The notes beneath the pieces were generated by a model that saw only the letters and a list, made by a program, of their open reading frames with translations, was not told where the DNA came from and did not search any database. A program made the position numbers and the translations under genes. Below, in pieces: positions 17,601 through 44,764 of a stretch of 64,000 bases of DNA. Position 1 is the first letter of the stretch. Each line of letters opens with the position of its first letter. The DNA lies in the NCBI RefSeq assembly GCF_009766105.1, contig NZ_LMUH01000026.1:360721-424720 (forward strand). Direction: 5' to 3'. This DNA comes from Granulicella sp. S156. GTDB taxonomy: Bacteria > Acidobacteriota > Terriglobia > Terriglobales > Acidobacteriaceae.

Positions 17601-17687
17601 GCCGGGATGGCGGAACTGGCAGACGCAGCGGACTCAAAATCCGCCGAGGGCAACCTCATGGGGGTTCGATTCCCCCTCCCGGCACCA
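17601..17687 (+). tRNA. tRNA-Leu (anticodon CAA), integration target
   Basis: GCCGGGA pairs with TCCCGGC. The anticodon stem GCGGA/TCCGC holds CTCAAAA (anticodon CAA, reading UUG). There is a class II variable arm and the T arm GGGGG-TTCGATT-CCCCC, with CCA encoded at 17685-17687. The 3' part from the anticodon loop onward is repeated at 44578-44636, showing that a mobile element has used this gene as its attachment site while restoring the tRNA. Confidence 0.95.
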
Positions 17688-17689
17688 AA
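17631..17689 (+). repeat. attL: left copy of the 59-bp attachment repeat
   Basis: From GACTCAAAATCCGCCGAGGG in the anticodon arm through the CCA end plus two A's. Matches 44578-44636 with 3 mismatches. Confidence 0.9.
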
Positions 17690-17715
17690 AGATAATAAAA
17701 GACTTATAGGTAATT

Positions 17716-19416: not shown

Positions 19417-20427
19417 CTATTGAGCTCTTTCCGACGAGATCCGATCGATGACTGACAATCGATGCTCTGGCGAGAGATGGCTGTACCGAGCTGACATCGT
19501 GATGGTCTTGTGTCCAGCGAGTTCTTGAATCTCTTTGATCGATGCACCCGCCATCGCCAGCCATGAGCAGAACGTGTGGCGGTTGCAGTGCCAGACATAG
19601 CCTTCGATCTCCGCGTCCTGTAAGCAGGGAACGAACCATGAACGTGTGTCGAAGCGAGGGCCTTGCCGAAAAAAGACCGGATCGGCAGGTCTGTGCAATT
19701 TATGTTTGAGAGTTTGGAATGCAGCGACCGAGTCGGCGTTGAGGTGGACCGTTCGTGCGGAGCCGTTCTTCGTCTTTGTGAGGTCAATGGTGCGACGGTC
19801 GAGGTGAACCTGTGCCCAGGTGAGGGAGTATTGCTCCGATAGGCGCATCCCTGTGCTGACGGAGATGATGAACTCGGCCAGATGCTCAGGGAACCGGCGT
19901 TCGATGACCTTGTAGAGCCGGTCGTATTCTTCGCGAGTCAGGAAGCGCAGGCGGCCAACGCCCTCGCGTCGGTGTCGAACCTGCCGTGCGGGATTGATGG
20001 TCGTCTTGTTGTTGTGGACGCCTTCGCGGTAGCAGAGGGAGATGAATGCCTTGTATCGGTTCGCGGTGGCGGGTGTCTTGCAGTGGGAGCGGAGCCAACG
20101 CTCAAGCTCTTGCGGCGTAATCTCAGCGGCGGGAGTCGATCCGAAGGCTTTGCGGACGATCTCGGCTTTGCTGACATAGCTGCGGCGATCCTTGTGGTCG
20201 ATTACGAACTCTAGTGCGTCATCGATCAACTCAGAGAAGCGAACCACCTTACTGTCGCGCAGCTCAGGAAGTTTTCGACCGGCAGTCGCATCGGCCTTAC
20301 GGCTCTGGTAAAGCTTGATCGCATCGGACTTGCGACCTACCTTCTCACGATGGCGTTTCCCAGCAGCGTAGTAATGAATCCACCAGATTCCGCTGCCTTC
20401 AGGCTTTTCGTAGACTCCGCGCATCAT
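19417..20427 (-). CDS. int: Tyrosine recombinase (integrase) of the element
   Basis: 336 aa. It has an N-terminal region with WWIHYYAAGKRHREKVGRKSDA, the short arm-binding type of tRNA-targeting integrases, a SAM-like core-binding domain (about residues 65-155) and a catalytic domain. Catalytic residues are visible: Arg in STGMRLSE, Lys in TKTKNGSART, the box HCNRH (His and Arg), His in GHKTIT, and the nucleophile Tyr in ARYSHLS. It would catalyse recombination between the tRNA-Leu site and the circular element. It lies at the left end, transcribed towards attL and divergent from the restriction operon. Confidence 0.95.
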   Translation of the reverse strand: MMRGVYEKPEGSGIWWIHYYAAGKRHREKVGRKSDAIKLYQSRKADATAGRKLPELRDSKVVRFSELIDDALEFVIDHKDRRSYVSKAEIVRKAFGSTPAAEITPQELERWLRSHCKTPATANRYKAFISLCYREGVHNNKTTINPARQVRHRREGVGRLRFLTREEYDRLYKVIERRFPEHLAEFIISVSTGMRLSEQYSLTWAQVHLDRRTIDLTKTKNGSARTVHLNADSVAAFQTLKHKLHRPADPVFFRQGPRFDTRSWFVPCLQDAEIEGYVWHCNRHTFCSWLAMAGASIKEIQELAGHKTITMSARYSHLSPEHRLSVIDRISSERAQ

Positions 20428-20657: not shown

Positions 20658-21263
20658 ATGCAGCTTCCTTCAGTATGCACCATCTCGACTGGGTACACGG
20701 CACGCGGGCGTCTTGAGCCGACGCAAAGTGGAGGCGTCCTTGTGATCCAGTTGAGAGACATTTCCGCAAACGGCGATATCGCTGCTGACCGACTCACGCG
20801 CGTCGCCATCGATGGTGCGTTAGACAGGTATCTTGTTCGTGCCGGAGACGTGGTGTTTCGCTCCCGTGGTGATCGCAATACGGCGTCAGTCCTCGATGGC
20901 CGCTTCATTGAGCCTGTTCTTGCCGTGTTGCCGCTGATGATTCTTCGTCCGAAGTCACATGTCATCACGCCTCAGTACCTTGCCTGGGCTATCAACCAAG
21001 CGCCAGCGCAACGCTTTTTCGACAGCATTGCCTGTGGGACCAACATGCGGATGTTGCCGAAGGCTGGTCTTGCGGCTCTTGAAATTGAGGTCCCGGCCAT
21101 CGAAACACAGCGAAAGATAGTCGAGATCCACGCGTTGGCAGAACTAGAACAAAGGCTTGCGATCCTCTCGGCTGAAAAACGTAAGACTCTCACAACCCTG
21201 ATTCTTAACGGCCAAGCAAAAGATTTGAGCGTGGCCGTGGCTACCGGAAGGAAGAAAAAATGA
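20658..21263 (+). CDS. Half-size type I restriction specificity protein (HsdS-like, one target-recognition domain)
   Basis: A 201-residue protein with one target-recognition domain (about 1-145) followed by one conserved helical region ending the TRD: IACGTNMRMLPKAGLAALEIEVPAIETQRKIVEIHAL. This is the usual 'G..q..i....l..i.iplPp..eQ..I' signature of HsdS. Normal HsdS proteins have two such units (about 400 aa). The gene is not obviously damaged and overlaps hsdM by 4 nt, so it may be a functional half-subunit that dimerises, or an alternative specificity module. A full-length hsdS follows hsdM. Confidence 0.8.
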   Translation: MQLPSVCTISTGYTARGRLEPTQSGGVLVIQLRDISANGDIAADRLTRVAIDGALDRYLVRAGDVVFRSRGDRNTASVLDGRFIEPVLAVLPLMILRPKSHVITPQYLAWAINQAPAQRFFDSIACGTNMRMLPKAGLAALEIEVPAIETQRKIVEIHALAELEQRLAILSAEKRKTLTTLILNGQAKDLSVAVATGRKKK

Positions 21264-22831: not shown

Positions 22832-24067
22832 ATGACAATGATTGAAGGCTGGCGAAGTAAAGAGTTGTCGGATTTGGCTACCTTTTATTCCGGAGGAACG
22901 CCGAGCAAGGCTAACTCTGAGTTTTGGGGAGGGGAAATACCATGGATTACGGTCAAGGATATGAAATCTATGCGCTTTTCGGGGTCATCATTTTCCCTTA
23001 CGGCGGATGGAGCGTCTTGCCTGCGAGTCATGCCACCAAATACCATATTTGTTCTTGTCAGAGGTATGGGTCTTTTCAAAGACCTCCCAATACTGTTGTC
23101 GGATCGGCCCGCGACATTCAATCAAGATATTAAAGCCCTCGTTGTATCGAAAGGTGTTGATTCGGAGTTTCTTGCATACTGTTTGCTGGCCCGAAAAGCA
23201 GAGATTCTTCGTCACGTTGATCATGCGGGCCACGGTACTGGTCGTCTTAGCACAGATCTTTTGGCCGCTATTCCACTCCCCTTACCCCCATTTCCCGAAC
23301 AGCTCAAGATTGCCGCGATTCTGCGGACGTGGGATGAGGCAATAGATAAAACAGACGCTCTCATTAGGAAGCGGCAGCAGCAAAATACCGCCATTACCTA
23401 TTCGCTCGTTTTTGGAGAGCACCGTCTTTCGCGCTTTAAGGAATCGGATAGGAACGTTCGGCACGAGTGGTTTGCTCTGCCGTCTCAATGGAGTTGCCTC
23501 CCAATCGGAAGAATCGCCGAGGAGGTTTCAGAGCGAAACGGAAACAATGCCGATTTTGAGGTGTTGTCTTGCTCGAAGCACGTAGGGTTTGTGAAATCAC
23601 TTGATTACTTCAAAAAGCAGGTCTTTAGCTCCGATCTGGCCGCGTATAAGAAGATCAGGCGAGGCGAATTCGGCTTTCCGAGCAACCATGTCGAGGAAGG
23701 TTCAATAGGACTCCAGAATCTCGTAGACGTCGGACTCGTAAGTCCAATTTATACCGTGTTTCGGTTCGCTCCCCAGAAGATCATCGGTTCCTACGCGTTC
23801 AGTGTCCTAAAGTCTAGTCTGTACCGCCATATCTTTGAGGTAAGCACCAGCGCTTCTGTTGATCGGCGTGGAAGTCTGCGTTGGAGTGAGTTTTCCAAAA
23901 TACCGTTTCCTGTTCCGCCCCTCAGAGAACAAGAGGCTATCTCAGAGGTACTTGCAACGCAGGCAGACGGACTCGCTCGACTTCGCGCTCAGCGAGCCGC
24001 AATGGAATGCCAGAAACGTGGCCTTATGCAGAAGCTCCTAATGGGGCAATGGCGAGTGAAGGTCTAG
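22832..24067 (+). CDS. hsdS: Type I restriction-modification specificity subunit (two recognition domains)
   Basis: 411 aa with two target-recognition units. Unit 1 starts ELSDLATFYSGGTPSKANSEFWGGEIPWITVKDM and ends IPLPLPPFPEQLKIAAILRTWDEAIDKTDALI. Unit 2 covers about residues 215-385 and ends FSKIPFPVPPLREQEAISEVLATQADGLARL. The repeat of the conserved 'PLPP..EQ..I' helix is diagnostic. Start at 22832; the third codon is also ATG. It would set the bipartite sequence recognised by the complex. Base composition is a little more AT-rich than hsdM, as usual for specificity genes that are often exchanged. Confidence 0.93.
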   Translation: MTMIEGWRSKELSDLATFYSGGTPSKANSEFWGGEIPWITVKDMKSMRFSGSSFSLTADGASCLRVMPPNTIFVLVRGMGLFKDLPILLSDRPATFNQDIKALVVSKGVDSEFLAYCLLARKAEILRHVDHAGHGTGRLSTDLLAAIPLPLPPFPEQLKIAAILRTWDEAIDKTDALIRKRQQQNTAITYSLVFGEHRLSRFKESDRNVRHEWFALPSQWSCLPIGRIAEEVSERNGNNADFEVLSCSKHVGFVKSLDYFKKQVFSSDLAAYKKIRRGEFGFPSNHVEEGSIGLQNLVDVGLVSPIYTVFRFAPQKIIGSYAFSVLKSSLYRHIFEVSTSASVDRRGSLRWSEFSKIPFPVPPLREQEAISEVLATQADGLARLRAQRAAMECQKRGLMQKLLMGQWRVKV

Positions 24068-24077
24068 AGGAGAAAGA

Positions 24078-24926
24078 ATGTCTAGGAAGCACGTCCCAAT
24101 GGCAATTGCGTACGATTTCGACGGAACCCTCGCGCCCGGAAACATGCAGGAACACCAGTTCCTTCCAGATATTGGGATGACGCCAAGAGAATTTTGGGCC
24201 GAGGTCAAGAAGTTGACCCACGAGCACCAGGCCGACGAGGTTCTTATCTACATGAACCTCATGCTTCGGAAGGCTGCTGCAACCAATGTTCCCGTTCGAC
24301 GCGATGACTTCAAGGCACGAGGGAGCGCCATAGAGCTCTTCGAGGGAGCGGTCGAGTGGTTTGACCGCATCACTGAGTACGGCAGAACCAAGGGGATCCA
24401 TGTGGACCATTACCTTATCTCTTCTGGTAACGCCGAGCTCTTTGCGGGTACTCCCATCGCTTCGAAGTTCGCCAAAGTCTACGCATCCAAGTTCTTCTTC
24501 GATCAAAACGGCGTTGCAGCATGGCCGGCACTTGCTGTCAATTACACAACGAAGACTCAATATCTCTTCCGTATCAACAAGGATGCCCACGATCTCAGCG
24601 ACAGCAGCAAAGTAAATAAATACGTCGAGAAAAACGAGCGGCCTGTACCTTTTGAGAACATGGTGTTCATCGGAGACGGATCAACTGATATCCCATGTTT
24701 TCGCCTAATCAAGGAAGAGGGTGGCCTCTCGGTGGCGGTATATAAGCCGCATACAAAAGGTGCGCGTACCAAGGCCGATCAGTATCTCAAGGATGGTCGA
24801 GTGCACTGCGTTGTGCCAGCTAATTACACGGATGGAAGCGAAATCGACCGTGTCATCAAAGCCAATATCGACGCGGTAGCCGCTAGAGGAGCACTCACAG
24901 GGCTTCTCACGGAGGGCGGGGCATGA
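24078..24926 (+). CDS. HAD-superfamily phosphatase inside the restriction operon
   Basis: 282 aa with all four HAD motifs: AYDFDGTLAPGN (motif I, nucleophile Asp), LISSGNAEL (motif II), a Lys in motif III, and FIGDGSTDIPCF (motif IV). So a Mg-dependent phosphohydrolase is expected. It lies 10 nt after hsdS and overlaps hsdR by 4 nt, so it is certainly translated with the type I system. HAD genes near hsd genes are known in other genomes but their job is not established; a nucleotide, sugar phosphate or phosphoprotein substrate is possible. Confidence 0.87.
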   Translation: MSRKHVPMAIAYDFDGTLAPGNMQEHQFLPDIGMTPREFWAEVKKLTHEHQADEVLIYMNLMLRKAAATNVPVRRDDFKARGSAIELFEGAVEWFDRITEYGRTKGIHVDHYLISSGNAELFAGTPIASKFAKVYASKFFFDQNGVAAWPALAVNYTTKTQYLFRINKDAHDLSDSSKVNKYVEKNERPVPFENMVFIGDGSTDIPCFRLIKEEGGLSVAVYKPHTKGARTKADQYLKDGRVHCVVPANYTDGSEIDRVIKANIDAVAARGALTGLLTEGGA

Positions 24927-29023: not shown

Positions 29024-29953
29024 ATGCCTATTCCCGATTACCAATCCATCATGCTTCCTCTTTTGCAATTTGCCTCCGACGGTGGAGAGCACCGCTCGCG
29101 CGACGGCATCACGGCTCTTGCTCAGCACTTCAATCTGACACCGGAAGAAGTCGCCACGCTCCTTCCGAGCGGCCAGGATTACTTGTTCGGAAACCGTTGG
29201 GGATGGGCGCGAACCTATCTCAAAAAGGCTGGCTTGATTGCCTATCCGAGCCGGGGAAAGTTCCAGATCACGAGTGAAGGCCGGAGTCTCCTCTCTGAGC
29301 AGCCTGCCAAGATCAATGTGGCCTTGCTAAAGCGGTACCCAAGCTTTTTAGAGTTTTGGAACGGAGCTGAGAAGGAAGGAGTCGCTCAAACCCCAATCTC
29401 CGCAGTGGAGTCACAGGTTGCCGAACAGACGCCTGAAGAGCTTATCGCTTCAGCTCACGAAAAGCTTCGAAAGCAAATCCAGTCTGAACTGTTGTCTAAA
29501 GTGATGTCCTGTACGCCGGCATATTTTGAGAGGCTGGTCGTGAGGCTGCTCACGGCGATGGGGTACGGCGGGTCACTGACGGATGCGGGTTCTGCATTGG
29601 GACGCACTGGAGACGGCGGCATCGATGGAGAAATTAAAGAAGACAAACTGGGCCTCGACCGAATCTACATTCAAGCCAAGAGATGGGGAGCGAACAACGT
29701 AGGCTCTCCGGAGGTTCGAGACTTCATTGGCGCATTGGCCGGGAAGAGAGCCCGGAAAGGCGTCCTCATCACAACATCGAAGTTCTCCAAAGATGCAATC
29801 GCCTGCGCCGCGAATCTCGAGAAAAACGTGATCTTGGTGGACGGAGACCGACTGAGCGAGCTGATGTTCGAATACGGGTTAGGCGTGACGACGGAAAGCA
29901 CCTACCATGTGAAGCGCATAGAGAATGACTTCTTTGATGAGGATGAAGTCTAA
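29024..29953 (+). CDS. mrr: Mrr-type (type IV) restriction endonuclease
   Basis: 309 aa. The N-terminal winged-helix Mrr_N domain (about 1-90) is recognised by RSRDGITALAQHFNLTPEE, NRWGWARTYLKKAGLIAYPSRG and FQITSEGRSLL. The C-terminal Mrr_cat nuclease has YFERLVVRLLTAMGYGG, GDGGIDG (Asp201) and IYIQAKRWG (Gln217-x-Lys219), the Mrr variant of PD-(D/E)XK. GVLITTSKFSKDA is also typical. Mrr cuts modified foreign DNA. It starts 172 nt after the restriction operon and is followed by two co-directional genes, so it may head a separate three-gene unit. Confidence 0.92.
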   Translation: MPIPDYQSIMLPLLQFASDGGEHRSRDGITALAQHFNLTPEEVATLLPSGQDYLFGNRWGWARTYLKKAGLIAYPSRGKFQITSEGRSLLSEQPAKINVALLKRYPSFLEFWNGAEKEGVAQTPISAVESQVAEQTPEELIASAHEKLRKQIQSELLSKVMSCTPAYFERLVVRLLTAMGYGGSLTDAGSALGRTGDGGIDGEIKEDKLGLDRIYIQAKRWGANNVGSPEVRDFIGALAGKRARKGVLITTSKFSKDAIACAANLEKNVILVDGDRLSELMFEYGLGVTTESTYHVKRIENDFFDEDEV

Positions 29954-30059
29954 CTTTCAACCAGATGCCGTGTGCGAACTACGGCGCGCTTGTAGTGCCA
30001 AACCAAGCGTTTGCATGCTGTAGCAATCTTCTCGATATATTCAAGGTTAGGGAGGTTGG

Positions 30060-31121
30060 ATGGCCTATACCGCAAGATTCATTGAGAACGTGGTACTGGA
30101 AGAGAAAGCACCGGCTGATTACTACGCCGAGTGTTGCGAATTCCTCGATGAATTCATCACAAAACGTCCGCGGATCGTCGGAACCGAAGTCCATGCGGCA
30201 CTCAAGTCGTTCTTGGTCATGCTTCTTTCCGCGCCGGAAGACCGCGCCCTCGGGTCGCTGGAGTCGGTCGATCGAGTTGTCAAACCTTTTGATGCTGATG
30301 ATCATTCGTCTTCGGAGCCTGGCACCACCGAGGCGTCGGCTTTGCTGCTGTTCGGCATGGCGGGCAAGGCGCTCTATTTCCTGTCCAAGCAGACTCAGAA
30401 TTCGCAATTTGAAACGGAGCTCGCGCGGCTCTTCCGAGATGTCGCCGATCTTCGATCCAATCTCTGGTTATTTCATATGTCGGCGCGAATGGCGCAGGCG
30501 GGATTCCAAATCCACTTCATTCCCGAACAGGAGGAGCCGACTCCAGATTATGTTGCTACGCGAGAGAACACACGAATCCATGTCGAAGCCAACACCCGGA
30601 ACCCGTCGGTCAAAACAATCGCCGGAATTCGAGATGCTCTGTGGAATGTCATGCATGGGTCGGCAAAGTCCGGTGGCAAGCAGATCAAGTTTAAGGACGC
30701 CGCCTATAGTCCTGGTCTGATCGTGGTGGACATCTCGAATTGCGACGTCGATTCGAACGAGACAGGATTGCTTCCGCATATAAAGCTTCGTGCTGACCTG
30801 TGCAAGCGTACGAGTTCTGGTTGGACGTATGACCTTTCGGGCGACCCGGAGTTTTTTGAGCATCCGGAGAACACCGGAAACCTCGTGGAGTACGCGATTC
30901 GTTATTTCCATCAGATGGCGGAATACAACCGGTACAGCGTCGGAGCGCTGCTCATCGGAATATCGATGGGAGTGAGGACGATCAACGAGGGAGTTCTCGG
31001 CGCTCCAAAGGGTGCGATCATGATCGTCGATTCAAGATACCCTCAACTCGCTCTGCCCGAGCTTGCGCCACAGATTTATCTGGTCGACACGCAAAACCCA
31101 TTGCCCGAAGGCACTCGATAG
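30060..31121 (+). CDS. Unrecognised 353-aa protein with a nuclease-like core
   Basis: I do not recognise the family. The first ~130 residues look helical (EFLDEFITKRPRIVGTEVHAALKSFLVMLL). In the middle, GFQIHFIPEQEEPTPDYVATRENTRIHVEANTR places Asp163 and Glu176 on two strands separated as in PD-(D/E)XK nucleases, but with Asn178 where Lys is expected, so a nuclease fold is only a suggestion. The C-terminal part has hydrophobic strands (SPGLIVVDISNCDVD, SVGALLIGISMGV). It lies 106 nt after the Mrr gene and 27 nt before a DUF2971 gene on the same strand, in a defence-rich element. Confidence 0.6.
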   Translation: MAYTARFIENVVLEEKAPADYYAECCEFLDEFITKRPRIVGTEVHAALKSFLVMLLSAPEDRALGSLESVDRVVKPFDADDHSSSEPGTTEASALLLFGMAGKALYFLSKQTQNSQFETELARLFRDVADLRSNLWLFHMSARMAQAGFQIHFIPEQEEPTPDYVATRENTRIHVEANTRNPSVKTIAGIRDALWNVMHGSAKSGGKQIKFKDAAYSPGLIVVDISNCDVDSNETGLLPHIKLRADLCKRTSSGWTYDLSGDPEFFEHPENTGNLVEYAIRYFHQMAEYNRYSVGALLIGISMGVRTINEGVLGAPKGAIMIVDSRYPQLALPELAPQIYLVDTQNPLPEGTR

Positions 31122-31148
31122 CAGTGAGGCTTCCGAATAGGATGCAGC

Positions 31149-31832
31149 ATGACTCTGACCACGAAGTTTCTACGCCGCTACAGCAATCTGCCGTCGCTTA
31201 TTCACCTGCTTACGACGAAGTCGCTGACGTTCCTCGATCCAGAATCCTGGGACGACAAAAATGATTCGCTCTTCATGCGCCTATACAAAGAAAAGAAAGA
31301 GCTCGATACGTTGCTTGCGGTCTGCTTCTCTCAAGAGACGGAGACATATCACCATTGGAGTGTGTTTGCATCGGGATCAAGCGGGGTATGCATTAGCTTC
31401 AGAAAACAAGAACTTTTGCAGGAATTGGGCCAATATGAAGGGATCAGGGGTCGGAAAGTCTCCTACATCCCGCTGAACGACTTGGGGGAAACGCCGAAAA
31501 AGGTGAGCAATCTTCCCTTCATGAAGAGAGCTCCCTTCGAACCGGAATCGGAATTTCGAGTGATCTTTGAGGAGCAGGGGAAACAGCGGTCCTATCTGAA
31601 TATCGACATTCCGGTCTCCTGTATTGATCGCGTCTACCTCAGTCCCTGGATGCCGCGAGCGGTCGCGGACTCGGTAAAATCCGCACTCAAGGGACTCGAC
31701 GAAGAAGGCGATATCGAGATCATTCGATCGACGCTGATTGAGAATGACCGGTGGGCTAACTTCGGGAAATCTGTCGTTGGCGAGGTCGAGGATGAAGCCC
31801 ATTCGCATCGACTGATGAAATCGAAGAAATGA
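31149..31832 (+). CDS. DUF2971 family protein
   Basis: 227 aa. The pattern LRRYSNLPSLIHLLTTKSLTFLDPESWDDKNDSLF, then LLAVCFSQETETYHHWSVFASGSSGVCISF and MKRAPFEPESEFRVIFE, is that of DUF2971. These are small proteins often found in defence islands and of unknown activity. The invariant positions are the 'W-DxxD' turn, the 'CFS...WxxYaxxxxGvCI.F' strand pair and the 'P.xxE.E.R' end. Third gene of the Mrr/353-aa/DUF2971 series; the ATG is 27 nt after the previous stop. Confidence 0.72.
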   Translation: MTLTTKFLRRYSNLPSLIHLLTTKSLTFLDPESWDDKNDSLFMRLYKEKKELDTLLAVCFSQETETYHHWSVFASGSSGVCISFRKQELLQELGQYEGIRGRKVSYIPLNDLGETPKKVSNLPFMKRAPFEPESEFRVIFEEQGKQRSYLNIDIPVSCIDRVYLSPWMPRAVADSVKSALKGLDEEGDIEIIRSTLIENDRWANFGKSVVGEVEDEAHSHRLMKSKK

Positions 31833-31872: not shown

Positions 31873-33282
31873 TCAACGCCATCGAGTTCCTTCCCGCACG
31901 ATGAGGGAAGCGATCTGTTCTTCCGGTAAGCCCAAGTCCAGGAGAAGAACACCGCGAAGCAGTGCCCGTAGCTTTTGATTCAAGAAAAAGATTGCCGCCC
32001 CTTCCACAGGTGTCCGGCGGCGACGAGGGGAAACTTTGTTTCCTGCGTGAGTCAGGAAATTCCTCGTTGCGGCGACCTCTGCAGCAAACGCAGGAGGGTC
32101 TATCGTTAGCTGCATCAGGATGAAATCGGACAGTCTCGAACAGAGTGCTATAAGCCGTGAAGCAAAGGTCGGATCATTTGCATGCGCCATCGACTCACAA
32201 AGGCGGGAGGCTAGTGCTTGATCGACTTGTTCCTGGGCTAGCAATTGCGCATAGGCCCGTCGAATTCGTCTCAGTGTGGTCTTGGAGAGTGACGGATCTT
32301 CAAAGCTGACGCGATGAAAACCTTCCAGCGCTTGTGTCAGCGAAAGGAATTCTGTCTCGTAAAACAGATCTCCCTTGCGAAGAACGCCGAGTGCGAGGTT
32401 CTCGACAGAGCGAAATTCCTCGGGGTGAGAGAGCCATGTGGCCATTCCATGCGCAAGTTGACTGGTGGTGCAACGCACACAATCGAAAAGACCGAGCTTT
32501 TCGACGACTCGTTTTCTCTTGGCCACCACGTGTCCGGATTCTTCGCCTTTGTAAACGAACATAGTCTCCATAGCGACAGACGAGCCAAGCAGGAGAGAGA
32601 AGAAATTCTCTACACGGTTGCCGACATTGAGATACCAATTCAATGATTCCGGTTCCCCACTCTCGATCTCGACAAATGCGACGGGACGAGTGATACGGCC
32701 TCCGTCGTCTTCCGTTGAGAGAATCTCGGAGTGAACGAGCAAACTCGCGTGCACCCGAGTCTGGAAAACGCCAAGCTTGAAGACAACCCGCTCTTCGAGC
32801 GGAATCTTGAGCAGGATATGATCGGTTTCCCAAGTTTCATTGAGTGGGCCCGGCAGCCACTCTCCCAATCCTGTGTACGTGAACCGCGCCGACGTGAGCA
32901 CCTTATCGTCCAGGCCGCCCAGATGCATTCCACCTACGAGCAAGGAAGCGCGGTACGAGTTGGCCTCGATCCAGTGACCGGAACTCGTATCGCGCAGACC
33001 GGGATGCGCAATTTCCAGCAATTGGCACAGCGTGCAGATCCCATCAGCGGAGAATCCATGCATCACCGCGATCCGAGGGACCGCCCCACTCTCCGAGAGC
33101 CTCATGAGCGAGGCAAGCGAGGCCACACGAATGCGGTAGCCGTATTGCGGCGATGTAGTAAACGTCAGCCCGTTATCGTCATTGCTTAATGTGCCGGTCA
33201 GTACGACTTCTGGAGAATGCGGCTCCCAAAAGGCGGATACCAAGCTGAACTGGGAATCGAGACGGTTGTGCTTGTCGGACAT
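31873..33282 (-). CDS. ApeA-like HEPN protein (probable abortive-infection ribonuclease)
   Basis: 469 aa. The N-terminal half resembles the ApeA N-terminal domain: FWEPHSPEVVLTGTLSNDDNGLTF, with later strand motifs. The C-terminal helical half has the HEPN ribonuclease signature in EVAATRNFLTHAG (Arg407-Asn...His412, the Rx4H form). ApeA proteins are single-gene antiphage systems acting by abortive infection. It stands alone on the minus strand, converging on the DUF2971 gene. A decayed second copy of its C-terminal coding region lies just upstream (33394-33500). Confidence 0.75.
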   Translation of the reverse strand: MSDKHNRLDSQFSLVSAFWEPHSPEVVLTGTLSNDDNGLTFTTSPQYGYRIRVASLASLMRLSESGAVPRIAVMHGFSADGICTLCQLLEIAHPGLRDTSSGHWIEANSYRASLLVGGMHLGGLDDKVLTSARFTYTGLGEWLPGPLNETWETDHILLKIPLEERVVFKLGVFQTRVHASLLVHSEILSTEDDGGRITRPVAFVEIESGEPESLNWYLNVGNRVENFFSLLLGSSVAMETMFVYKGEESGHVVAKRKRVVEKLGLFDCVRCTTSQLAHGMATWLSHPEEFRSVENLALGVLRKGDLFYETEFLSLTQALEGFHRVSFEDPSLSKTTLRRIRRAYAQLLAQEQVDQALASRLCESMAHANDPTFASRLIALCSRLSDFILMQLTIDPPAFAAEVAATRNFLTHAGNKVSPRRRRTPVEGAAIFFLNQKLRALLRGVLLLDLGLPEEQIASLIVREGTRWR

Positions 33283-33500: not shown

Positions 33501-33659
33501 GTGCGCGCACCGCTTGCCCTGTGTGGATGGCTACTCGGAAGTCGGCTTCTAAAGAAGCAATCCATCGACGGTTGGAGGCGGGGGCCACGAGTATCGTAAC
33601 AGTCTTGTTCCTGCCCTCAACTCTGACCCTCAAATCATGCGCTCTGACGAGCGCGAATG

Positions 33660-33908
33660 AGGAAACCAAACCTTCCTAAGGGGCTGCCCTCGCGCGGCGC
33701 AAGGGCTTCCCCAATCTTCCGCGCTTCGCTTGTGCAGACCTCCGCTGCGCTCCGCCCTTTCCGTTCCGCCTTTGGCTCCCTCTCCAAGGGTGGGGAGACC
33801 CCTCCCTTGCGCCTTGCTACCCCGCCTTCGCCAGGTGGCGTTCGGCATGTAGGTACATGTCACGCATGGCATGAAAAGCAACGGCAACTGCCCAAGGAGA
33901 GAACACCC
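33660..33908 (+). promoter_or_regulatory. Highly self-complementary leader before the ArdC-like gene
   Basis: GGCGCAAGGG (33696-33705) pairs perfectly with CCCTTGCGCC (33804-33813), and inside that TCCCCA (33708-33713) pairs with TGGGGA (33791-33796). The rest is C-rich with many CGCTCCGC/CTGCGCT half-repeats. The frame of ardC is open through this region but the start at 33909 is far better supported. Single-stranded-DNA promoters of this shape precede antirestriction genes on conjugative plasmids; that role here is a hypothesis. Confidence 0.4.
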
Positions 33909-34835
33909 ATGAACACCGCCACAATCGCCACCCCGTCCAATGTCACCTCCTTCACCCAGAACCTCAAGATTCCGCAGCCAAAGCAGCAGACAACGAAAGA
34001 AGCAATCGCCGCCAATGTCCAAGCCCTCATCGAGCACCTGGAGCAGGGCCACTCCGAAGGACTGACCGCTTACCTTACCGCTATGGGCCGGTTTCACACC
34101 TACTCATTCGGCAACATCCTTGAGATCGCCCGGCAACGGCCAAACGCGACTCGCGTCGCTGGACTGTATGCGTGGAACCAGCTTGGTCGCAAAGTGAAGA
34201 AGGGAGAGCGCGGCATCCGCATCCTTGCCCCTGTGATCGGTGTTCGCCGGAAGAAGGATGCCGAGGCAGAAAAGGACATCCGCACCCAGAATCAAGCCGT
34301 GCTGGTTGGGTTCCGTTCCGCGTACGTCTTCGATGTCTCCCAGACCGAGGGCAAAGACCTTCCGGAGTTGTCGGAGCGCGTGACCGGCAATGTCGGGGAG
34401 TACAGCGAGCGGTTGCTAGACTTCATCTCCGCCCAGGGCATCCAGCTTGAGTTCAATGAGAGCATAGCGCCCGCACTAGGGATGAGCTACGGCAGCAGAA
34501 TCGCCGTTCTTCCTGGACAGGAAGCAGCCGAGGAGTTCAGCACGCTTGTTCATGAACTCGCCCACGAGATGTTGCACAAGGCGGAGCGGCGCACCGCGAC
34601 CACCAAAACAAGGCGGGAAACAGAGGCCGAGGCCATCGCGTTTGTGGTGGGCACGACCATCGGACTCAGTACGGGCAGGGCGTCCGCTGACTACATCCAC
34701 CTGTATCACGGCAACGCGGCACTCCTCACCGAGAGCCTTGAGGTCATCCAGAAGACATCGGCAGTCATACTGTCCGCGCTGGAATCGAACACGGCGGTGG
34801 CGTCCTCTGAGTCTTCATTGGCGGAGGCCAGTTGA
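33909..34835 (+). CDS. ardC: ArdC-like antirestriction protein with zinc metallopeptidase domain
   Basis: 308 aa. The N-terminal domain (about 30-155) matches ArdC/DUF1738 ssDNA-binding proteins: YLTAMGRFHTYSFGNILEIA, RVAGLYAWNQLGRKVKKGERGI, and GFRSAYVFDVSQTEGKDLPE. The C-terminal domain carries LVHELAHEMLHK (His215, Glu216, His219) and ETEAEAIAFVV, a zinc peptidase like IrrE/ImmA. Such proteins protect incoming transferred DNA from restriction. ATG 33909 has AAGGAG 9 nt upstream; a much longer open frame upstream is rejected. Fits a mobilizable element that must enter new hosts as single strand. Confidence 0.85.
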   Translation: MNTATIATPSNVTSFTQNLKIPQPKQQTTKEAIAANVQALIEHLEQGHSEGLTAYLTAMGRFHTYSFGNILEIARQRPNATRVAGLYAWNQLGRKVKKGERGIRILAPVIGVRRKKDAEAEKDIRTQNQAVLVGFRSAYVFDVSQTEGKDLPELSERVTGNVGEYSERLLDFISAQGIQLEFNESIAPALGMSYGSRIAVLPGQEAAEEFSTLVHELAHEMLHKAERRTATTKTRRETEAEAIAFVVGTTIGLSTGRASADYIHLYHGNAALLTESLEVIQKTSAVILSALESNTAVASSESSLAEAS

Positions 34836-36685: not shown

Positions 36686-37258
36686 ATGGCTGACACTTGG
36701 TTTACGTCCGACTTTCATCTCGGGCACTTCAACATCATTCGCTACTGCAACCGTCCGTTCGCGGACACGCAGGAGATGAACGCGGCTATCGTGGAGCGCA
36801 TGAATGCGTCGGTGAAGTCGGATGACGTGCTCTATTTCCTCGGGGACTTCTGCATGGGAGGACCAAAGGCAGTTGCCCTCTATCGCAATCAGATTGCCTG
36901 CAAGACGATCCACTTCATCGACGGAAATCACGACGGGACGACGCGGAAGGTACCGCACCTGTTCACCTCTTGGAGTTCTCTCTCCGAAATTCGTGTGGGC
37001 AAGCAAGGGATCGTTCTCTGCCACTATGCCATGAAGGTCTGGCCGCACCACTCGCGCGGGACGTGGCAGCTCTATGGCCATTCACATGGCAACCTGCCGG
37101 ATGATCCGCTGTCGCTCTCGATGGACGTTGGAGTGGACAGCCACGACTTTCGCCCTTGGCACTTCGATGAGATTCAGGCTGTCATGAAGGTCAAGGCAGA
37201 AGCGAAGGCGAAGCATATCGAGATGAGGGAGTTGATGGCAGGAAAGGGCGAATCGTAG
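36686..37258 (+). CDS. Metallophosphoesterase, calcineurin-like
   Basis: 190 aa. The metal-binding motifs of the family appear in order: SDFHLGH, YFLGDF, DGNHDG, CHYA, and YGHSHG. Small proteins of this layout act as phosphodiesterases or phosphatases on nucleotides or nucleic-acid ends, often called phosphoesterase or hydrolase. It is 6 nt before a second, different metallophosphoesterase gene, so the two are probably co-translated. Confidence 0.85.
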   Translation: MADTWFTSDFHLGHFNIIRYCNRPFADTQEMNAAIVERMNASVKSDDVLYFLGDFCMGGPKAVALYRNQIACKTIHFIDGNHDGTTRKVPHLFTSWSSLSEIRVGKQGIVLCHYAMKVWPHHSRGTWQLYGHSHGNLPDDPLSLSMDVGVDSHDFRPWHFDEIQAVMKVKAEAKAKHIEMRELMAGKGES

Positions 37259-37264
37259 GAGGTA

Positions 37265-37915
37265 ATGACAATGGCAAAAGTGCGAATCATCTGTATCAGC
37301 GACACGCACGGACAACACGCCGGTCTCCGTGTTCCCGATGGAGACATTCTGATCCATGCGGGCGATTTCATGACCTATGGAAACACGCCGCGCGAGATCA
37401 TCGACTTCAACACATGGCTTGGTCGTCAGCCTCATGCACACAAGATTGTCATCGCCGGAAACCATGATCGGTTGTTCGAGTCACACCCCATACCAGCTCG
37501 TGCCCTCATCACAAACGCCATCTACCTGGAGGACTCGGGCGTCGAAGTGGAAGGTCTAAAGTTCTGGGGATCACCAGTGCAGCCGCCTTTCAACAACTGG
37601 GCATTCAACGTACAGCGAGGCCAGCCGATACGCCGGCATTGGGACAAAATCCCGATGGGGACAGATGTCCTGGTGACTCACGGACCGCCTTTCGGGATTC
37701 TCGATCAATCCCGTCCGATGACCGACCATTTAGGTTGCGAAGAGTTGGCAGAAGTTGTGGAGAAGATCGCACCCAGGCTCCACCTGTTCGGGCACATACA
37801 TGGCGGTCAGGGGCGTGTGCATGGTAGCAATGGATGTGAATTCGTGAATGCTTCTGTGCTGAATGAACATTACATCCTGGTGCATGAGCCGCAGATCGTT
37901 GACTTGGAGATCTGA
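37265..37915 (+). CDS. Metallophosphoesterase, MPPED/UPF0046-like
   Basis: 216 aa. Motifs are SDTHGQH, ILIHAGDF, IAGNHDRLFE, WGSPVQPPFNNWAF, VLVTHGPPFGILD and LHLFGHIHGGQG. The 'GSP.qP.f.nwaFn' segment is characteristic of the MPPED1/2-like group, which have phosphodiesterase activity in the animal members. It begins with an ATG two codons before a second ATG (37271). 52 nt after its stop a PD-(D/E)XK-type gene starts on the same strand. Confidence 0.85.
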   Translation: MTMAKVRIICISDTHGQHAGLRVPDGDILIHAGDFMTYGNTPREIIDFNTWLGRQPHAHKIVIAGNHDRLFESHPIPARALITNAIYLEDSGVEVEGLKFWGSPVQPPFNNWAFNVQRGQPIRRHWDKIPMGTDVLVTHGPPFGILDQSRPMTDHLGCEELAEVVEKIAPRLHLFGHIHGGQGRVHGSNGCEFVNASVLNEHYILVHEPQIVDLEI

Positions 37916-37967
37916 TTCAGATCAGGCACTCAGGGAGATTACTTGCAACAACAGATTGGAGCCACTG

Positions 37968-38540
37968 ATGGACAATTTTGAGGGCATCATTGCGACTTTG
38001 CTTGAGGCCGACCACTACTGGGTGCGCAGGTCTTTCAAGATCGACGTAACACTGGAAGAAAAGCGGGAAGTCGGCAAGCACTCGATACCGCGCCCTGAGA
38101 TCGATCTGCTTGCTCTCAGCTACTCCAAGAATGAAGTCGTCGCCTTTGAGGTAAAGTCGTTCCTCAATTCTCCGGGCGTCAGACTGGCAGACCTGCAAAA
38201 GGAACACGACCTCCAGGAGGGACGGTACAAGCTTTTCACTTCGCGTGGATATCGGAAAGTTGTTCTGGCTAGGCTAAAGCTAGACCTGATAAGTCATGGC
38301 ATGGCGAACTCAGATACGACGGTGAAACTGGGGCTCGCGGCAGGAAAGGTGTACCAAAAGAAAAATGAGCCTCCGATGACTCAAAGCAACCTGATGAGGG
38401 AGTTCCTAGAGAAGAACGATTTCATCTTTTGGTCGCCGGAGGACATTAGGCAAAGGGTCAAGGCACTGGCGCAGCGGGCATACGAGAATGACCCGGTCAT
38501 CATTGCGGCCAAGATTCTCTTTCCCGAACTCACAAAGTGA
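37968..38540 (+). CDS. PD-(D/E)XK nuclease-like protein
   Basis: 190 aa. RPEIDLLALSYSKNEVVAFEVKSF places Asp46, Glu61 and Lys63 in the PD-(D/E)XK arrangement. Residues before (WVRRSFKIDVTLEEKREVGK) could supply the first Glu-bearing helix. GRYKLFTSRGYRKVVLARLKL continues the alpha/beta core. A longer frame opens at 37863 but ATG 37968 has TTGGAG 7 nt upstream. Nearby phosphoesterases suggest a common nucleic-acid role. Target unknown. Confidence 0.68.
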   Translation: MDNFEGIIATLLEADHYWVRRSFKIDVTLEEKREVGKHSIPRPEIDLLALSYSKNEVVAFEVKSFLNSPGVRLADLQKEHDLQEGRYKLFTSRGYRKVVLARLKLDLISHGMANSDTTVKLGLAAGKVYQKKNEPPMTQSNLMREFLEKNDFIFWSPEDIRQRVKALAQRAYENDPVIIAAKILFPELTK

Positions 38541-44577: not shown

Positions 44578-44636
44578 GACTCAAAATCCGCCGAGGGCAA
44601 CCTCGTGGGGGTTCGACCCCCCCTCCCGGCACCAAA
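44578..44636 (+). repeat. attR: right copy of the 59-bp attachment repeat
   Basis: Copies the 3' half of tRNA-Leu(CAA) including CCA. It differs from the left copy at three positions (CTCGTGG against CTCATGG, and GACC against GATT in the T loop). It is not a full tRNA. Confidence 0.9.
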
Positions 44637-44764
44637 TGTTAATCAGATTCAATCCATTCAAAATAAATGGTTTAAGCGAGAATCGAGCCGGTAGGCGCAC
44701 GGCTTACCAGGTTCGTTTTGAACTGTACCGGAAGGTCTTCGGTACAACGCCGTCGGATGGGAGT

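Follow-up and report, generated by a model that had tools for sequence, protein, structure and literature searches.

Three adjacent genes in a mobile element of Granulicella

The 64,000-nucleotide stretch of contig NZ_LMUH01000026.1 from Granulicella sp. S156 that was analysed here (the window) contains three adjacent genes encoding an Mrr-type nuclease, a protein of 353 amino acids (aa) and a DUF2971-like protein, which a previous reading of the letters (the sequence-only reading) had proposed as an undescribed antiphage unit. The locus raises the question of whether the three genes form one defence system or were brought to the same place as separate units. They are arranged as follows:

29024..29953, + strand: gene 1, Mrr type IV restriction enzyme of 309 aa with Mrr_N and Mrr_cat domains
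30060..31121, + strand: gene 2, orphan protein of 353 aa, for which a PD-(D/E)XK-like core is a doubtful possibility
31149..31832, + strand: gene 3, DUF2971-like protein of 227 aa, PADLOC class PDC-S31, with a predicted ADP-ribosyltransferase (ART) fold

This layout, with three genes on the + strand and gaps of 106 and 27 nucleotides (nt), was confirmed. The defence unit was not borne out, as the set does not recur in the genomes searched, and the main result of the analysis is the reassignment of gene 3, not a three-gene unit. The three genes are probably separate cargo of an integrative mobilisable element, in which gene 3 would represent a portable predicted ART effector or toxin.

Predicted fold and conserved residues of gene 3

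An AlphaFold model of gene 3 was calculated from an alignment of 11 proteins, omitting the relative from locus L014 because of its split reading frame. The best model reached a predicted local distance difference test (pLDDT) value of 83 and a predicted template modelling score (pTM) of 0.77. The seven best Foldseek matches in the PDB were DarT proteins from Thermus and M. tuberculosis along with yeast Tpt1, with E values of 1.9e-5 to 1.8e-3, and the next row, at E 0.095, was unrelated. Structural alignment by VIA-align placed Tpt1 (Z 8.8) and DarT (Z 8.7) at the top, with KptA and further toxins of the ART type next. The 36 best rows are, by their titles, all ART enzymes, and a different fold first appeared at Z 3.3. 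The assignment is persuasive because one superfamily fills the list of matches and a gap follows below it. According to this model, gene 3 is predicted to have an ART fold, which sharpens the previous description of DUF2971 proteins as having no known activity.

The structural elements of gene 3 follow each other in the order FLRRYSN strand, LPSLIHLL helix, LTFL strand, LLAVCFS strand, YHHWSVFA helix, GVCISF strand, E-x-E-F-R strand and I-x-R-[IV] strand, and this order agrees by eye with that of DarT. The residues D36, W70, Y106, K126, E133, E135 and R137 are invariant in all 27 DUF2971-type members compared, and position 10 is occupied by arginine in 17, histidine in 6 and lysine in 4 of them. 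The set includes 14 of the 15 wider DUF2971 loci, among them L042, itself a member of the close subfamily; L035 was excluded, its profile match covering only positions 1-63 of 89 and its frame ending early. The residues E152 and R52 of DarT1 are described in a published account (PMC11543638), and E135 of gene 3 may be the counterpart of E152.

Against Pfam DUF2971 (PF11185), gene 3 scored 18.1 bits and thus stayed below the gathering cut-off of 22; the relationship is backed by the invariant residues, which are common to members above the cut-off. Additionally, five PADLOC PDC-S31 models match gene 3, the best with an E value of 3.8e-16 (PADLOC matches to PDC-S31 are given without a cut-off). 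The DUF2971-type family is already listed as a PADLOC candidate, the S denoting a single-gene candidate.

Gene 3 was also considered as a DarT protein by sequence and rejected, as the DarT profile PF14487 gave no match up to E 0.1 and a profile-profile comparison with 10 DarT proteins yielded probabilities of 5-30%. Since the sequence profiles fail to link the two families, the fold is claimed and not membership in DarT. A profile search of the PDB with the gene 3 alignment returned one irrelevant match (E 0.82). No KptA sequences for a profile test were present in 9 genomes, and Tpt1 was therefore compared by fold only.

Twelve viral models, most of them for unnamed proteins of unassigned function, resemble gene 3 at E <= 1e-3; the BFVD entries I1TQK9, I1TQK7 and A0A248SKX8 belong to the viral proteins with such a structure. 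ART-like proteins of the DUF2971 kind may thus be encoded by phages.

Distribution of gene 3 and exchange of its upstream neighbours

Members of the gene 3 subfamily were detected by a 13-member profile in 9 of 378 genomes from the same family and by a single-sequence search in 3 of 396 genomes of the phylum, the source genome being counted in both cases. Ten of the 38 stretches retrieved by pattern from the genome_contigs collection are relatives of gene 3, nine of them from Pseudomonadota and the tenth, L014, from a metagenome-assembled genome of the Acidobacteriaceae; the viral contigs contributed one relative among 17 such stretches. Among the genomes sampled, 11 of 61 relatives and 2 of 14 controls encode a DUF2971 protein above the Pfam cut-off. 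A phylogenetic tree, from which L014 (gene split between two frames) and L106 (34% identity) were omitted, grouped the window with L007 and L102 with full support. The nonsynonymous and synonymous divergence between the window and L102 (dN 0.12, dS 2.5) demonstrated purifying selection on gene 3.

Beyond the window, 19 subfamily loci (L007-L019, L047 and L102-L106) were compared, some of them with short flanks (L104 comprises 3.3 kb in all, and L011 and L012 less than 1.7 kb upstream). The upstream partner of the DUF2971 gene changes from locus to locus. In L007 and L102, whose gene 3 relatives share 80% identity with that of the window, the gene lies between the SPARDA genes for DREN-APAZ and a short prokaryotic Argonaute (pAgo) and the Hachiman system, the latter being read in L102 from its 91% DNA identity to L007. 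The ATG of the DUF2971 gene is located 5 nt past the pAgo stop codon, and an earlier GTG would overlap it in L007. In L047 (49-51% identity to gene 3), the Lamassu genes LmuA-LmuC-LmuB end 53 nt upstream. The relative in L014, frameshifted and showing 73% identity over the first 109 residues and 60% over the rest, is preceded at a distance of approximately 720 nt by a Ppl-like PHP-SMC ATPase, and L016 contains a DUF2971-like gene 73 nt behind AbiEii. DUF2971-type proteins are accordingly located beside defence systems, as had been claimed before. In L103 the gene follows a helix-turn-helix gene, the downstream gene of L008 matches DUF6602 weakly and under the cut-off, and L009 has only a weak PDDEXK_5-like gene, likewise downstream; by eye, the neighbours in L104, L106, L015 and L019 are different or ambiguous. 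DNA homology of the window to L007, L102 and L014 begins at position 31148/31149, the start codon of gene 3, with none upstream, so that gene 3 alone appears to have moved.

The SPARDA operon and the DUF2971 gene behind it, with Hachiman HamAB next, are located at L007:6219-9678 and L102:8318-11777, on one element in two genera. The DUF2971 gene is a possible third SPARDA component. In L047:8453-12621, the gene that comes after Lamassu LmuA-LmuC-LmuB and DUF2971 matches PDDEXK_9 weakly.

Recurrence of the three-gene set

Gene 1 matches both domains that define Mrr proteins, Mrr_N (1.7e-30; 105.4 bits compared with a Pfam cut-off of 29.5) and Mrr_cat (1.7e-34; 118.8 bits compared with 21), as well as the PADLOC mREase_IV model (2.4e-86). 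Its catalytic domain retains by eye the D...QxK pattern expected of Mrr. With both defining domains present, gene 1 is classified as a type IV restriction enzyme of the usual Mrr kind, with predicted cleavage of modified DNA. In a sample of 260 genomes from this family, Mrr was detected at E <= 1e-30 in 29, including the source genome.

The co-occurrence that a functional unit would suggest was not found. No relative of gene 2 and no gene of the DUF2971 subfamily was detected near Mrr in any of 29 other Mrr loci, for which flanks of roughly 1.5 kb, or less where the contig ended, were scanned, and in 11 Mrr loci with wider, unannotated flanks no common neighbour was recognised by eye. Conversely, neither Mrr nor gene 2 was found by tblastn (1e-3) near gene 3 relatives in any of the 19 other subfamily loci. 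Among 28 loci, Mrr was found near a DUF2971 gene just once, beside the distant member L052, where the copy is spread over two frames. Gene 2 was detected only in its own genome among those searched. The trio was consequently removed from the list of candidate defence systems, whereas each of the three genes stands as plausible defence cargo, in agreement with the sequence-only reading.

A proposed portable effector or single-gene system

The preferred explanation is that gene 1 would act as a stand-alone modification-dependent Mrr nuclease and gene 2 would be unrelated orphan cargo, whereas gene 3, a small predicted DarT/Tpt1-like ART, would have been re-inserted at its gene boundary directly behind different nuclease-based defence operons and would also occur without such operons. 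Upon infection, gene 3 would use NAD+ in a pocket formed around R/H/K10-Y11 and the E133-x-E135-x-R137 strand and transfer ADP-ribose to nucleic acid or protein, by which phage or host processes would be blocked. A nucleic-acid target is suggested because the names of both best fold matches point in this direction. The protein would thus serve as an effector or toxin that is independent of, or added to, the adjacent nuclease.

Several observations weigh against this explanation. A single predicted model, built on 11 sequences, underlies the ART assignment; its four companion models reached pLDDT values of 73-76, and the template modelling (TM) scores to DarT and Tpt1 are low (0.36-0.45 by query length). 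Models that lack a clear match commonly reach a best Z of 7-8, so that a Z of 8.8 is not decisive by itself. The stretch E133-x-E135 was placed as the putative catalytic acid stretch by strand order and not by superposition, and the gene 3 profile showed no significant relation to 10 DarT proteins. L007 and L102 are 91% identical in DNA sequence over 17 kb and, being one element, count once; dS was computable for L102, not for L007. No upstream defence gene was recognised by eye in L010-L013, L017, L018 and L105. Moreover, the gaps of 106 and 27 nt, in which no promoter or terminator above chance was detected, are compatible with joint transcription of the three genes.

The strongest competing explanation, a serious possibility, overlaps with the preferred one and differs in denying joint action: gene 3 would be a self-sufficient single-gene defence or toxin, and its adjacency to nuclease genes would reflect the company found in defence islands. 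The PADLOC class PDC-S31, with S meaning single-gene, is in line with this proposal, as are the several relatives that by eye have no recognised partner and that favour autonomy of gene 3, and the wider DUF2971 genes of the sampled relatives, which by eye lie among housekeeping or phage-like genes. However, the gene is co-directional with its upstream neighbour at 5 nt behind SPARDA, 53 nt behind Lamassu and 27 nt in the window, spacings that are tighter than mere island company needs and that favour co-expression with the upstream system.

Gene 2 as a possible nuclease

Gene 2 is a real gene. Its frame remains open for 356 codons, whereas the longest among 1000 base shuffles reached 220, the sequence GGGAGG precedes its ATG, and the G+C contents of its codon positions (0.59/0.41/0.62) resemble those of the neighbours. 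The protein was rightly described as unrecognised: no Pfam, NCBIfam or PHROG family was found up to E 0.1, no Pfam family for three separate segments up to E 10, and no PDB sequence up to E 10. The only PADLOC match is a weak one to PD-T7-1 over residues 135-186 (E 0.012).

Relatives were absent from the collections searched. Three overlapping samples of genomes were searched: in those of 61 and 398, gene 2 was detected only in its own, and the one of 396 returned three matches, of which one is gene 2 itself and the other two are tiny and lie in non-gene reading frames. Among 72,556 plasmids nothing was found at 1e-3, four matches at E 0.8-4 falling in trbG, in genes of the PRTRC system and in a record that carries no annotation; 50,697 phage records yielded nothing at E 1. 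None of the 14 and 3 pattern matches in genome_contigs and viral_contigs was confirmed, and among reading frames of at least 60 residues in the fetched loci a spurious frame of L003 alone matched. Gene 2 appears by these searches to be a near-orphan and unrelated cargo. Kinship with the DUF6602-like protein of L008 was ruled out, no similarity being detected.

It is conceivable, though doubtful, that gene 2 encodes a PD-(D/E)XK-like nuclease in which ExN replaces ExK and which works with or beside Mrr. The residues D163, E176, A177 and N178, on which the previous hint at a nuclease fold was based, are indeed present; P162-D163 and E176-x-N178 lie near two predicted strands between helices, and the PD-T7-1 match covers the same stretch. 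However, the pattern PD-x(8-20)-[DE]-x-[KNQ] arises in 16% of gene 2 shuffles, and the single-sequence model reached a pLDDT of only 42. As the motif is so frequent in shuffles, the D...ExN arrangement argues weakly for a nuclease and may be due to chance; the exact spacing occurs in 0.3% of the shuffles, a spacing chosen post hoc. Together with the missing Pfam family, these data leave the nuclease as a first guess, and no assignment was made.

Further explanations

A more far-reaching and unlikely proposal considers DUF2971 proteins as a new family of nucleic-acid ARTs that would be plugged into DNA-cutting defence systems (SPARDA, Lamassu, Mrr) as a second effector and would ADP-ribosylate phage DNA, perhaps at ends cut by the partner, blocking repair. 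DNA nucleases are frequent among the partners, and the PDB titles of Tpt1/KptA, the joint best fold match, record DNA complexes and a 5'-p-ADPR-DNA product.

It is also improbable that genes 2 and 3 constitute a toxin-antitoxin pair in which gene 2 would neutralise or regulate an ART toxin. The gap of 27 nt between them would fit, and DarT has a macro-domain neighbour in 4 of 8 plasmid stretches (30-base flanks; none seen in the rest). In contrast, gene 2 contains neither a macro nor a NADAR domain according to Pfam and is missing from all 19 other subfamily loci, where no constant partner was seen.

Finally, a very rare true three-gene system, in which Mrr would sense or cut modified DNA, gene 2 would act as nuclease or adaptor and gene 3 as effector, is the least probable reading: the single strand, the short gaps, the lack of a terminator-like site between the genes and the good ribosome-binding site of gene 2 are opposed by the absence of gene 2 from everything else searched, by partners in 0 of 29 Mrr and 0 of 19 DUF2971 subfamily loci, and by homology of gene 3 that starts at its own ATG.

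The mobile element and its other cargo

The trio is part of a 27-kb TrwC/ArdC element that is integrated at the end of a tRNA-Leu(CAA) gene in a genome of 6.4 Mb in 26 contigs. The direct repeats at its ends (17631-17696 and 44578-44643) are identical in 61 of 66 bases. The following features were assigned to it:

17631..17696, + strand: left boundary, direct repeat that comprises the 3' part of tRNA-Leu plus a few bases
19417..20427, - strand: tyrosine integrase (Phage_integrase, 1.6e-23)
31873..33282, - strand: ApeA-type HEPN protein, convergent neighbour of gene 3
33657..34835, + strand: ArdC anti-restriction protein; relatives, or a piece at the locus end, in L007, L008, L014, L047 and L102
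40396..43386, + strand: TrwC/TraI relaxase-helicase; relatives in L007 and L102
44578..44643, + strand: right boundary, second copy of the tRNA-Leu end

The element also encodes a NikA-like mobilisation protein. Its cargo includes a type I restriction-modification (RM) operon that contains a HAD gene of class PDC-S34, Mrr, ApeA and HipBA, and the defence-dense setting described before is thus supported by type I RM, ApeA, HipBA, ArdC and the TrwC relaxase around the trio. Within the type I operon, a HAD-IB phosphatase gene (24078-24926; PADLOC PDC-S34, 2.2e-122) is situated between hsdS and hsdR, and a gene for a YgjP-like metallopeptidase follows hsdR. A half-length HsdS-like open reading frame (ORF) at 20658-21263 (201 aa, weak Methylase_S match) precedes HsdM and is possibly a spare specificity half, the full-length HsdS being encoded at 22832-24067. 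The region 36686-38540 contains paired genes for calcineurin-like phosphoesterases, followed by an ORF of 225 aa without a clear family.

Comparison with known systems

ART effectors of phage defence are already known from DarTG and CmdTAC. In 5.39 million open-licence PMC papers, no description of DUF2971 as an ART was found; the term 'DUF2971' appears in one of them, as a repaired frameshift in an annotation table, and 'PF11185' in none. DUF2971 is common and yet had no known activity, and the predicted ART fold together with the invariant E-x-E-x-R makes it a directly testable enzyme family. Since a DUF2971 gene lies immediately downstream of SPARDA and of Lamassu, these systems may be able to carry an extra effector.

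With respect to the individual systems, gene 1 shares both defining domains with Mrr type IV restriction enzymes, and no difference was found. SPARDA is described as having two components (PMC10810196, PMC12205087), and neither paper mentions 'DUF2971'; it resembles the present case in being located upstream of close gene 3 kin in L007 and L102. Lamassu (LmuA, LmuC, LmuB) is located upstream of a gene 3 relative in L047, but was not seen in the window. The RNA 2'-phosphotransferase Tpt1/KptA is the joint best structural match of gene 3 (Z 8.8 over 112 residues), whereas the alignment with full-length Tpt1 is confined to its C-terminal lobe, and gene 3 has no PF01885 match.

DarT1/DarT2 of DarTG (PF14487) is the best Foldseek match of gene 3 (VIA-align Z 8.7) and of similar size, with the conserved stretches of gene 3 in a similar order by eye and the glutamate-bearing strand last. 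However, no sequence relation was detected by hidden Markov models (HMMs), the invariant PFYF stretch of DarT is missing from gene 3, and a Pfam scan of 21 proteins of the window, which left aside some small ORFs in the element, revealed no partner with a macro or NADAR domain. In L020:431-2594, DarT has a macro-domain-like neighbour on one side and, on the other, an ORF that resembles by eye the end of hsdS; on a Meiothermus plasmid, hsdS is annotated in the same place beside DarT. A CmdTAC-like partner was not found beside gene 3 in the window. CmdT of CmdTAC is reported as an mRNA ADP-ribosyltransferase acting in phage defence (PMC11618068), and in this respect it resembles the role predicted for gene 3.

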